Shown here: piece by piece, positions 53,448-56,824 of the stretch
Layout: the number at the start of each line of letters is the position of its first letter
Numbering within the stretch: the first letter of the stretch is position 1
Source: Sediminibacterium goheungense
GTDB taxonomy: Bacteria; Bacteroidota; Bacteroidia; Chitinophagales; Chitinophagaceae
DNA: 64,000 nt
Assembly: GCF_004361915.1 (NCBI RefSeq)
Contig: NZ_SNWP01000010.1
Location: forward strand, 1,390,050 to 1,454,049
Direction of reading: 5' to 3'
The notes under the pieces: model-generated
Database searches by the model: none
What the model saw: the letters and a program-made list of their open reading frames with translations, nothing else
What the model was told of the DNA's origin: nothing
Made by a program: the position numbers and the translations under genes

Positions 53448-53563
53448 ACTTAGAATTATGCAGTAAATTAAGAAAGATTTGGTGGATGAAATGGTTCCTG
53501 CTGTTTCATCTATACAATATGCCAAATTACCGACAACAATGATGAAATACTATATAATGATAC

Positions 53564-53575
53564 TTGTTTTGCGAG
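53564..53575 (+). promoter_or_regulatory. -7-like element directly before lytS-like start
   Basis: TTGTTTTG (53564-53571) resembles TAnnTTTG and ends 4 nt before the ATG at 53576. The ORF extension from TTG 53564 lies within it and is rejected. Confidence 0.45.
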
Positions 53576-54634
53576 ATGAAAAATAATACTTCTCTGGTCA
53601 TATTATCACATGTACTGGGAAGTCTGGCTATTTTACTCTTACCGTTGATATTGCTGCAGGTTTTCCCACAACCCATACAAATTTCTTCGCTATTGACCTC
53701 CTATGCCTATTGGCAGTTTTGCCTTTTTTACCTGCTCTTCTTTTATTTTCACAAATACATACTTCTTTCACTTCTACTCGAGAAAAATAACTGGCTTGCC
53801 TATACAGCCATAATAACACTATTATTACTATTGGTGGTGAATATTCAGCCATTCGATCAGCTACTCTCTCTGAGCGGCTCAACACCTTTGCCTATGAAAA
53901 GTTTTCCGGGTAAAGAACCACCCAGAAAAGGCCCAAGGGTTGACATACTCAGTATCATTTTATTTATTCTGGTAATTGTATTCAGTGTGGCTTTTGAAAT
54001 GAATAAAAAATGGCGATCCTCATTATTAAGAGCTGAGCAGGCAGAGAGAGAAAAAGCTGAGGCAGAACTTTCATTTTTAAGGGCACAGATCAACCCTCAT
54101 TTTCTGTTCAATACATTGAATAATATTTATTCCATGTCTGTAACAGGCAGTCCTTATACATCCGAAAGCATTCTTAAGCTATCCAATATCATGCGTTATG
54201 TTACTGATGAGTCGCATGAAAACTTTGTTCCGCTACAACAGGAAATCGATTGTGTTACAGATTATATTGATCTTCAGAAATTACGATTGGGCAAAAAAGT
54301 ACAACTCGATTTTGTTGTAACCGGTAATCTTGACAATAAAAAGATTGCCCCATTGTTGCTGATTAATTTTATTGAAAATGTTTTCAAATACGGGATCAGC
54401 AACCATGCTGTAAGCCATCTGCAGATCAGTATCGATGTGTTAGATAACGAACTTAGATTTTATGCTCAAAACCCATTACACAGTTCGCAAAGAATGATTC
54501 ATCGGGATGGTATTGGTATACAAAATACAGAAAGAAGACTCTGGCAGATCTACCCGAATCAACACAAGCTTGAAATCAAAAGAGAAAATGGCTTGTTCAC
54601 AGTAGCCTTACAAATAAATTTTAAAAATGAGTAG
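53576..54634 (+). CDS. LytS-like sensor histidine kinase (His_kinase family)
   Basis: A 352-aa kinase. Four N-terminal membrane helices (about residues 8-140) are followed by a short coiled coil and the His_kinase domain, with phospho-His in AQINPHFLFNTLNNIY. A HATPase_c domain follows (LLLINFIENVFKYG and DGIGIQNTERRL). No extracellular sensor domain is visible. It overlaps its LytTR response regulator by 8 nt (ATGAGTAG), and the two form a two-component system. Confidence 0.93.
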   Translation: MKNNTSLVILSHVLGSLAILLLPLILLQVFPQPIQISSLLTSYAYWQFCLFYLLFFYFHKYILLSLLLEKNNWLAYTAIITLLLLLVVNIQPFDQLLSLSGSTPLPMKSFPGKEPPRKGPRVDILSIILFILVIVFSVAFEMNKKWRSSLLRAEQAEREKAEAELSFLRAQINPHFLFNTLNNIYSMSVTGSPYTSESILKLSNIMRYVTDESHENFVPLQQEIDCVTDYIDLQKLRLGKKVQLDFVVTGNLDNKKIAPLLLINFIENVFKYGISNHAVSHLQISIDVLDNELRFYAQNPLHSSQRMIHRDGIGIQNTERRLWQIYPNQHKLEIKRENGLFTVALQINFKNE

Positions 54635-55334
54635 CCATATCAAATGCGTTGCAGTAGACGATGAGCCACTAGCACTTGAATTGATCAGTAAACATATTCA
54701 GCAAACTCCTGGCCTGGAACTGATACAAACATTCGACGATGCAATACAGGCAGGTGAGTTTATCAGAAACCATGATATTGATCTTCTATTTTTAGACATC
54801 AATATGCCCGATATTACCGGACTGGATCTTCTGAAATCATTGCCACAAAAACCCATGACTATTTTCACAACGGCTTATAAAAAGTTTGCTTATGAAGGAT
54901 TTGAACTTGATATCATCGATTATTTATTAAAACCTATCTCCTTCGATCGTTTTACAAAAGCAGTTCTTAAGGTTCAGCAAAAGCTGAAAGCAAAAAAAAC
55001 AATTACCCAGCAGGAAGCACATTTCGTTGTTAGATCTGAATACAAGATGGTAAGAATTGAATTATCTTCTATCCTATATGTGGAAGGCGTTGAAGACTAT
55101 GTAAAATTTCATATTGAAAACGAGAGACCTGTTATGACACTGATGACTTTGAAATCAGTATTGGAAAAACTTTCCTCACACAGATTTTATCGGATACACA
55201 GAAGTTATATTGTACCTGTTGCGAAAGTGCGTTCCATTTTAAATAAAAAAATAACCCTCTCTAATGGAACCGTTCTGCCCATAAGCGATAGTTATGCCGA
55301 CTTTATTCAACAGTGGAACCAGTCAGGGCTTTAA
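54627..55334 (+). CDS. LytTR family response regulator
   Basis: A 235-aa regulator. The receiver domain (1-120) has VAVDDEP, the phospho-acceptor Asp in LLFLDINMPDITG, and IFTTAY and LLKPISFDRF. The LytTR DNA-binding domain (about 135-233) has KMVRIELSSILYVEGVEDYVKF and FYRIHRSYIVPVAKV. LytTR proteins bind direct repeats about 21 bp apart. Two such pairs lie right after this gene. Confidence 0.94.
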   Translation: MSSHIKCVAVDDEPLALELISKHIQQTPGLELIQTFDDAIQAGEFIRNHDIDLLFLDINMPDITGLDLLKSLPQKPMTIFTTAYKKFAYEGFELDIIDYLLKPISFDRFTKAVLKVQQKLKAKKTITQQEAHFVVRSEYKMVRIELSSILYVEGVEDYVKFHIENERPVMTLMTLKSVLEKLSSHRFYRIHRSYIVPVAKVRSILNKKITLSNGTVLPISDSYADFIQQWNQSGL

Positions 55335-55346
55335 CAAAACATTCTC

Positions 55347-55375
55347 CGATACATAATATCCGTTAGTCGATACAT
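55347..55375 (+). promoter_or_regulatory. LytTR-type direct repeat pair 1
   Basis: CGATACAT at 55347-55354 and again at 55368-55375, with starts exactly 21 bp apart. A third partial copy, CGATACAG, is at 55384-55391. Confidence 0.75.
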
Positions 55376-55457
55376 ATTTCCGGCGATACAGGCGCCCGGA
55401 TAGCTTTGATAGTGAATTAAAAAAACAATCCTTTCTCCTGCCAAAAAAGGTATTTAT

Positions 55458-55486
55458 CGATACATAAGTCTGTTTAATCGATACAT
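55458..55486 (+). promoter_or_regulatory. LytTR-type direct repeat pair 2
   Basis: CGATACAT at 55458-55465 and 55479-55486, again exactly 21 bp apart, both preceded by AT. It lies 63 nt upstream of the dioxygenase-like gene, a good activator position. Confidence 0.75.
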
Positions 55487-55548: not shown

Positions 55549-56292
55549 ATGGAAAGAAAAGATTTTTTAAGAAACAGTCTGGGCATCATCGGAGCAGGAT
55601 CTCTGGTAATTGCCTGCGGAAAAAGCAGCGTTAGTCCCTCCGGTTCAGGAACCGGTACTTCAACCGGCGGCACCACCACAGGCAGCAGTTCCTGCGTTGT
55701 ATCTCCTACTGAAGTAGAAGGTCCTTATCCTTACCCTGGTGGGGAAATCAATAATCCGTTGCAAAGAGTAGATATTACAGGCGGACAAACAGGTGTTCCG
55801 TTAAACATGACTTTAACGGTGGTAAATGCAAACAATGCCTGTGCAGCTGTATCAGGAGCAAGGGTTGATATCTGGTATTGTAATAAAGACGGGTACTATT
55901 CCGGTTATGGTAATCAGCCTGGTTTACTGGGCACAAAAAGTTATCTGGGCGAAACATGGCTAAGGGGTTACCAGCTTTCAGACAGTAATGGTCAGGTAAA
56001 ATTTTCAGGTATTTATCCAGGTTGGTACAGCGGCCGAGCTACCCATATTCATGTAGAGGTTTTTGTAAACAATGTATTAGTAAAAACCACACAGATGGCT
56101 TTTCCCGAAACCATTTCAGATACGGTACATACCAGTTCATTGTATGCGGCACATGGTATCAATACCACCAGAAACACTGCTGATAATATTTTTGGTAATT
56201 CAGCAACAGATCTTGCCAACCAAACCATGAGTCTTACAGGCGATACCACCAATGGGTATACGGGTACTTATAAAATTGGCATTTCTATTTAA
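55549..56292 (+). CDS. Intradiol ring-cleavage dioxygenase-like lipoprotein
   Basis: A 247-aa exported protein with an N-terminal signal and lipobox-like VIACG (also twin-charged MERKDF). A Ser/Thr/Gly linker leads to an intradiol dioxygenase core: VEGPYPYPGG (first Tyr ligand), GARVDIWYCNKDGYYSGY, and YPGWYSGRATHIHVEV (second Tyr and both His iron ligands). All four Fe(III) ligands are present. The aromatic substrate is unknown, and protein-bound or polymer substrates are possible because it is outside the cytoplasm. It is the likely target of the LytTR regulator. Confidence 0.88.
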   Translation: MERKDFLRNSLGIIGAGSLVIACGKSSVSPSGSGTGTSTGGTTTGSSSCVVSPTEVEGPYPYPGGEINNPLQRVDITGGQTGVPLNMTLTVVNANNACAAVSGARVDIWYCNKDGYYSGYGNQPGLLGTKSYLGETWLRGYQLSDSNGQVKFSGIYPGWYSGRATHIHVEVFVNNVLVKTTQMAFPETISDTVHTSSLYAAHGINTTRNTADNIFGNSATDLANQTMSLTGDTTNGYTGTYKIGISI

Positions 56293-56302
56293 TTGTTGGA
56301 AT

Positions 56303-56824
56303 ATGGAAAAAGCAGTCATTCAATTAAAATACAGACAGGTTATTGATCATAACACAGAAGACTTTCTGGAAAAGATGATCTTTCAGTTATCCTATGATGA
56401 ATTCAAACTCAAATCGCAGGTCTACAATCCTGAACAGAAATTAACCCGTTTCAGTCAGATGAAAGCGATTGATGGAAGGGCTAATTCATTACATTATAAA
56501 AGTGGTTTTGCAGTTAGCGGTTATCTGGAGTCTTTGAACAAAGCCATCCCTGGGTTTGCCAATGAAGCAGGCCAGCCTGTATTATTTGAAAGCTATCGTT
56601 TTGAAGTGATAGAATCTGATATTACAGATATCAGTAAACATCAGGTGGCTGTTCACTATATCACCGGCAATCTTTCAGTATTGGGCGTGTTAGGAGATAA
56701 GCTGCTTCTGGCCTATGGCAACAGGTTCTCAGATGCCCTGCCAACCGATCCCATTGAGGATTGCTTTTTATTGGCCTTACCAAAGGGTGTTACGATCAAT
56801 CGTTTTCATATTTCAGTTTCATAA
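56303..56824 (+). CDS. Protein of unknown function
   Basis: A 173-aa cytoplasmic-looking protein starting MEKAVIQLKYRQVIDHN. No signal peptide, membrane helix or motif is recognised. It starts 10 nt after the dioxygenase-like gene and probably shares its transcript. A terminator follows. Confidence 0.68.
   Translation: MEKAVIQLKYRQVIDHNTEDFLEKMIFQLSYDEFKLKSQVYNPEQKLTRFSQMKAIDGRANSLHYKSGFAVSGYLESLNKAIPGFANEAGQPVLFESYRFEVIESDITDISKHQVAVHYITGNLSVLGVLGDKLLLAYGNRFSDALPTDPIEDCFLLALPKGVTINRFHISVS

Follow-up and report, generated by a model that had tools for sequence, protein, structure and literature searches.

Gene content and direct repeats at the locus

The locus lies in a window of 64,000 nucleotides (the whole stretch of DNA that was analyzed) from Sediminibacterium goheungense. 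It holds genes for a histidine kinase, a LytTR response regulator, an intradiol dioxygenase-like protein and a companion protein, along with direct repeats and predicted promoter elements:

53509..53537, + strand: diverged direct-repeat pair before the kinase gene, TCTATACA at 53509-53516 and CCGACAAC at 53530-53537, period 21
53564..53571, + strand: TTGTTTTG, predicted to be the -7 box for the kinase-regulator operon and located 33 nt past the C of the second half-site
53576..54634, + strand: histidine kinase, the partner gene of the regulator (PF06580 His_kinase, 94.9 bits)
54627..55334, + strand: LytTR response regulator (PF00072, 68.3 bits, and PF04397, 68.3 bits, both above cut-off)
55347..55375, + strand: pair 1, CGATACAT-N13-CGATACAT, proposed activating site with a counterpart in the congener L245
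55384..55391, + strand: CGATACAG, partial copy 16 nt past the second half-site, probably no site
55401..55408, + strand: perfect Bacteroidota -7 box TAGCTTTG, 33 nt past the C of the second half-site of pair 1
55458..55486, + strand: pair 2, CGATACAT-N13-CGATACAT, covering roughly +46 to +74 relative to the start predicted for the pair 1 promoter
55549..56292, + strand: intradiol dioxygenase-like protein (PF00775 Dioxygenase_C, 36.3 bits; cut-off, 27.3)
56303..56824, + strand: companion gene, often conserved beside the dioxygenase gene

Pfam returned Response_reg and LytTR for the regulator, His_kinase for its partner and Dioxygenase_C for the enzyme, in agreement with the original prediction, which had named a LytTR regulator and a dioxygenase-like gene. 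The regulator has the receiver and the C-terminal LytTR domain of a LytTR-type response regulator; the genome contains 16 LytTR genes. The dioxygenase belongs to PF00775 and keeps Y117, Y160, H166 and H168 at the motif positions, two tyrosines and two histidines that we take to be the iron ligands. A lipobox-like VIAC-G was recognized by eye, and the protein is therefore probably exported. Its nearest solved relatives by sequence are the chains called Tetur07g02040, presumably a spider-mite protein, and intradiol ring-cleavage dioxygenase (6bdj, 5vg2). Pfam and NCBIfam searches with the companion protein gave no match. Its AlphaFold model is confident (pLDDT 94.2, pTM 0.87), and comparison with the PDB gave no clear match (best Foldseek E value, 0.32; best VIA-align Z score, 3.6). 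No fold was therefore assigned, and this does not by itself make the fold novel.

The repeat CGATACAT starts at positions 55347, 55368, 55458 and 55479 of the + strand, forming two pairs with a start-to-start distance of 21 nt, just as predicted. In both pairs, about two helical turns separate the direct repeats, which is the arrangement of a LytTR operator. Their predicted location between the LytTR gene and the dioxygenase gene, 63 to 202 nt upstream of the latter, agrees with the regulator stop codon (55334) and the dioxygenase ATG (55549); the distance to the ATG is 63 nt for pair 2 and 174 nt for pair 1. The fifth, partial copy of the prediction exists as CGATACAG, but it is out of register, because 16 nt rather than 21 nt separate it from the preceding half-site. 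On both strands of the window, 6 copies of CGATACAT were counted versus 1.47 expected, and a single shuffle out of 100 reached 6. Genome-wide (3,857,482 bases, 18 contigs), exact CGATACAT-N13-CGATACAT occurs twice, both times at this locus, and its reversed control 0 times. Similarly, the window's two pairs are the sole exact pair matches genome-wide to the degenerate half-site YCGRYACA (see below). Thus, the refuting outcome named with the original prediction, pairs scattered at random over the genome without a link to LytTR genes, was not observed: exact pairs lie at this locus only, and across genomes the motif tracks a LytTR subfamily.

The 21-nt distance and its association with one regulator subfamily

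Repeat distances were counted in 31 regulator-dioxygenase or kinase-dioxygenase intergenic regions, some of them near-duplicates; L036 (identical to L011) and L002 and L003 (copies of the window) were left out. The commonest distance was 21, found in 9 regions (at least 8 of 9 bases equal), followed by 14 and 16 with 4 regions each. Reading these regions by eye suggested the half-site YCGRYACA and, at a fixed distance from it, a -7-like box; both were then tested.

Regulators at least 48% identical to that of the window were classified as close and the remainder as distant, and pairs of YCGRYACA with at most 1 mismatch were searched for in 68 close and 58 distant loci, loci with a regulator score below 150 bits or a repeated regulator core having been dropped. 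Up to 500 nt downstream of close regulators, the distance 21 was found in 22 of 68 loci and each other distance from 12 to 35 in 0 to 3. In the 2,600 nt upstream of them, it was found in 12 of 68 loci versus at most 1 at other distances. Beside distant regulators, a pair at distance 21 occurred in 1 of 58 loci downstream and in 0 of 58 upstream. The prominence of this distance beside close regulators supports the proposal of a LytTR-type operator. These locus sets overlap the discovery regions, and 18 site-bearing loci lie outside the discovery list (L223 re-fetches a discovery site). In 34 of the 68 close-regulator loci, no pair was present at this stringency.

The association was also seen from the side of the dioxygenase genes. 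Where the genome encodes a close regulator, a pair (at most 2 mismatches) within 400 nt before the gene was present in 13 of 21 genomes, versus 1 of 34 where it does not (Fisher P = 1.6e-6). The input was 56 loci without the window, of which L199 was dropped (15 nt upstream), leaving 55; weaker places listed without a locus and separately named loci were excluded. Here, the close class meant at least 49% identity at any distance to the dioxygenase gene (in G114, the regulator is elsewhere in the genome), and a close regulator could be missed because no more than 7 or 19 candidates per genome were scored. Among the 13 positive loci, 5 were discovery regions (L019, L024, L025, L026 and L029). 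The sole exception among the 34 genomes, L023, was a discovery region as well, and its neighboring regulator is 43% identical. Furthermore, the two nearest relatives of the window's dioxygenase (L004 and L005; 71% and 68% identical) lack the motif, and the regulators beside them are only about 40% identical to that of the window. Therefore, the site seems to follow the regulator rather than the enzyme.

When distances were counted independently of the motif, 21 was found in 13 and 14 in 12 of 175 gaps of the close group. For regulators less than 48% identical, 21 was found in 12 of 111 gaps versus at most 3 at other distances; these 12 gaps mostly carry other half-sites, and two of them, L023 and L029, are discovery regions with a YCGRYACA-type half-site. 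Flanks (1,500 nt, often ending before the operon start) of 15 LytTR paralogues from the same genome had a repeat at distance 21 in 0 of 23 gaps. Because of this result and because 14 (12 gaps) comes near 21 (13 gaps), we do not claim the register for all LytTR proteins.

Over 39 sites, the half-site consensus was TTYAYCGRYACAW. Part of the conservation of its core follows from the selection of sites with no more than 1 mismatch to YCGRYACA. The TT, A and W on the flanks played no part in this selection, and positions in mid-spacer are almost unconstrained.

When up to 2 mismatches were allowed, pairs of YCGRYACA matched 99 times in the S. goheungense genome versus 66 times in the reversed control. 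The search for a wider regulon therefore gave no further target that can be named in this genome. Across 147 genomes of the family, the pattern of pair plus box gave 23 hits among the matches listed versus 16 in the reversed control. Mismatch-free matches were the window and two orthologous places (L160 and L161). At the latter two, the site directly follows a long ORF, and no ORF of at least 70 amino acids follows on the same strand in the fetched stretch; no link to the regulator was found, and they look like chance matches.

Promoter register at pair 1

The Bacteroidota -7 box is given as TAnnTTTG in PMC7366714, and its position as -12 to -5 in PMC9723704. With the box TAGCTTTG, the predicted +1 of the pair 1 promoter is at 55413, 136 nt ahead of the dioxygenase ATG. 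Offsets were counted from the C of the CG in the second half-site. Of 16 deduplicated discovery sites, 7 had a box (at least 5 of 6 bases) at offset 33, and no more than 2 had one at any of the remaining offsets between 20 and 57. When the tails were rotated, 0 of 5,000 rotations reached 7. The 16 sites were taken from 27 regions, L036, L042, L052, L024 and L046 having been dropped as duplicates or near-duplicates; in 9 of the 16, a good box at 33 was absent. In 20 sites outside the discovery list, among which L223 re-fetches a discovery site, YANNTTTR was found 8 times at 33 and no more than once at each of the other offsets. The independent number is smaller than 8, because several of these sites come from congeneric species.

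Pair 1 and the kinase-gene pair each have a predicted -7 box in register, which would place the site just upstream of a core promoter, and pair 2 has none in this register. Pair 1 lies further from the ATG than the pairs of most orthologues, and distances of 203 to 249 nt were found in three relatives (L025, L015 and L032). A scan for classical sigma-70 promoters was uninformative at this locus (9 sites versus 12.4 expected), and Rfam gave no match at the gathering threshold.

A diverged pair and a predicted leaderless promoter at the kinase gene

The pair before the window's kinase gene has 3 mismatches to the doubled YCGRYACA, and its CTATACA variant recurs ahead of orthologous kinase genes. 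In the upstream regions of kinase genes of the close group, a pair (at most 2 mismatches) was found at distance 21 in 25 of 61 versus at most 3 at other distances. This set consisted of the window and 60 of 67 other close loci, the rest having no kinase match upstream or less than 200 nt before the kinase. The first half-site was often TCTATACA or TCCATACA. At 32 to 34, YWNNTTTG was present in 19 of 26 kinase-promoter sites (window included), with one box elsewhere.

In the window, TTGTTTTG ends 4 nt before the kinase ATG, and the predicted +1 is the A of this ATG (53576). The A of the ATG coincides with the predicted +1 (3 sites) or lies one base earlier (14 sites) in 17 of the 19 boxed sites. 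Because the ATG sits at the predicted +1, the kinase-regulator mRNA is predicted to be leaderless. In Bacteroides thetaiotaomicron, mRNAs with leaders shorter than 10 nt have been described, including those of two sensor kinases, BT_3967 and BT_2166 (PMC7366714).

In L061, three half-site-like sequences at 21-bp steps (TCAGCACA, TCTATACA and CCGATAAA) were observed upstream of the kinase gene.

Pair 2 and its counterpart in a congener

At +33 of pair 2, the sequence is CAGCAACC, with no -7 box. Two pairs (at most 2 mismatches) within 700 nt past the regulator gene were found in only 2 of 69 loci, the window and L245, a congeneric assembly (56% complete) with a regulator 62% and a dioxygenase 41% identical to those of the window. 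In L245, the box TAATTTTG accompanies the first pair, and the second lacks one at +33 (TGTATAGG), the same asymmetry as in the window, and the stretch AACAAAAC-TTCTCCGA-ACAT around pair 1 is kept. The distance between the pairs is 203 in L245 versus 111 in the window, and the insert contains inverted-repeat-like sequence, as judged by eye. The asymmetry shared with this one relative argues that pair 2 is functional, yet does not have the layout usual for a promoter site. The 63 nt between pair 2 and the ATG resemble the distance of the single pairs of many orthologues, and thus pair 2 may serve a second promoter with an unusual box.

At 1446-1471 of L245, directly before the dioxygenase ATG, a GC-rich hairpin followed by T residues was seen, which looks terminator-like by eye. 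Polymerase starting at pair 1 would need to read through this hairpin.

Comparison with known LytTR systems

LytTR regulators bind two direct or inverse repeats of 9 to 11 nt with spacers of 11 to 13 nt (PMC4847170). The operators of AgrA, VirR and YpdB likewise consist of direct repeats spaced by about two helical turns and lie upstream of the promoter that they control. Different from these systems are the half-site TTYAYCGRYACAW, the Bacteroidota promoter with its -7 box and the two pairs before one gene.

LRS regulators autoactivate from direct repeats upstream of the operon promoter, as shown in S. mutans and presumed elsewhere, and the repeats of LRS and Bacteroides LRS-like operons are placed as here (PMC6193735). 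In LRS, the regulator is paired with an inhibitory membrane protein (PMC6193735), whereas here the partner is a histidine kinase (see the PF06580 match above), so that the locus is no member of LRS. In the B. thetaiotaomicron LRS-like entry of Table 3 of PMC6193735, the repeats are followed by TATCTTTG. By our count, the distance from the C of the CG in the second repeat to the box is 43 nt there, if the half-sites are aligned as we assume, versus 33 nt here. On this alignment, the operator here appears to be nearer the box than in the Bacteroides example, by roughly one helical turn.

YpdA/YpdB and BtsS/BtsR of E. coli are LytS/LytTR-type kinase-regulator pairs, as is the pair described here; BtsS is the kinase paired with BtsR. 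BtsR is the best NCBIfam match of the window's regulator, yet at 121.5 bits the match is under the cut-off of 246. The YpdB repeat is GGCATTTCAT, which is unlike the window's half-site, and the E. coli targets differ too.

Interpretation of the repeat pairs

The paired repeats are very probably docking sites by which the two-component regulator controls the dioxygenase operon and its own operon. In our main reading, to which we give a probability of roughly 0.83, the repeats are operators of the adjacent regulator, which would activate the dioxygenase operon from pair 1 and autoregulate, with pair 2 as a second operator. The recognition sequence and the target named by the original prediction are supported, with two amendments: CGATACAT is one version of a broader half-site, and the kinase-regulator operon is a second likely target. 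The prediction had missed the extended half-site, the -7 box of pair 1, the absence of such a box at pair 2 and the kinase-gene pair.

In the mechanism that we infer, the kinase would phosphorylate the LytTR regulator in response to some signal, and the regulator would occupy half-sites of the form TTYAYCGRYACAW with two LytTR domains, placed two helical turns from each other on the same face of the DNA. Relative to 55413, the half-site cores of pair 1 would cover roughly -67 to -60 and -46 to -39 and would thus lie immediately upstream of the -33 region. Regulator bound there could recruit the Bacteroidota sigma factor to TAGCTTTG and so switch on the dioxygenase, on whatever substrate it may act, and the companion gene. 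The diverged kinase-gene pair, with the same register, would provide autoregulation, the start coinciding with the kinase ATG. Pair 2 would most likely tune the output by negative feedback or as a roadblock, or else serve a second, weaker promoter nearer the gene.

The pairs could instead belong to two tandem activated promoters, with pair 2 as the main activator site acting on a degenerate -7 element and pair 1 driving an extra upstream start. Pair 2, 63 nt before the ATG, is indeed placed like the single pairs of Pedobacter (61 to 70 nt), and pair 1 is 174 nt away. Nevertheless, neither the window (CAGCAACC) nor L245 (TGTATAGG) has a TAnnTTTG-like box at +33 of pair 2, whereas pair 1 is boxed in both (TAGCTTTG and TAATTTTG), and pairs far from the ATG also exist in L025, L015 and L032; we regard tandem promoters as possible but rather unlikely. 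A further and more tentative idea, which we hold to be doubtful, is a genus-level two-operator switch, in which the regulator activates the dioxygenase promoter from pair 1, blocks elongation or forms a loop from pair 2 within the leader when its concentration is higher, and activates its own leaderless kinase-regulator operon. Such a switch would yield a pulse-like or capped response of a single-locus regulon and would rest on a 33-nt operator-to-box register common to several Bacteroidota genera.

If the regulator repressed rather than activated the dioxygenase, the position of pair 2 downstream of the predicted start would be a classical one, and repression of bsaA by AgrA has been reported from a site immediately downstream of the bsaA promoter (PMC4227749). 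In orthologues, however, a single pair is retained directly ahead of the -33 region, in many cases in one register. This is the layout described for activation in other LytTR systems (PMC6193735) and makes repression improbable. Binding by another transcription factor, be it another of the 16 LytTR proteins, whose sites share the pair architecture, or a non-LytTR protein, is less probable again, given that the motif tracks the window's regulator subfamily across genomes and that exact pairs are found at this locus only. Finally, short repeats arise easily in AT-rich intergenic DNA, and one shuffle in 100 had six octamer copies, but the specificity of the distance, the register, the conservation and the result of the Rfam search make it very improbable that the pairs are due to chance or are an RNA element without a regulator.

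We consider the locus a well-supported example of an operator type that is already known; its motif, register and target for one LytTR subfamily were not found in the literature searched. In that literature, mostly open-access papers, no mapping of such a two-component site in Bacteroidota was identified; the nearest work was the Bacteroides LRS-like entry in PMC6193735. If our main reading is right, one LytTR subfamily gains a testable half-site, promoter register and target operon. The combination of distance 21 and a box near 33 would also be a recipe to try on other LytTR regulators, which are numerous in this genome.

Variation of the locus among relatives

The gene order kinase, LytTR regulator, dioxygenase, companion is also found in other genera of the family and in Pedobacter. 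In Dyadobacter, the order kinase, regulator, dioxygenase is kept without a companion match. The dioxygenase gene is divergent from the kinase gene in three Pedobacter loci and one Pontibacter locus (L049, L053, L064 and L039). In L210, which has no dioxygenase match, the pair precedes the companion gene.

In four Mucilaginibacter loci (L056, L061, L063 and L066), the regulator gene is followed by a pair and then by a gene for a 125-amino-acid protein instead of the dioxygenase. By eye, this protein resembles a single-domain receiver, and the target there is likely a different one. A small protein with a CX5CH motif, also recognized by eye, is encoded before the dioxygenase in L227 (from position 2208) and in the intergenic region of L004; in L227, the repeat pair stands ahead of the gene for this small protein.
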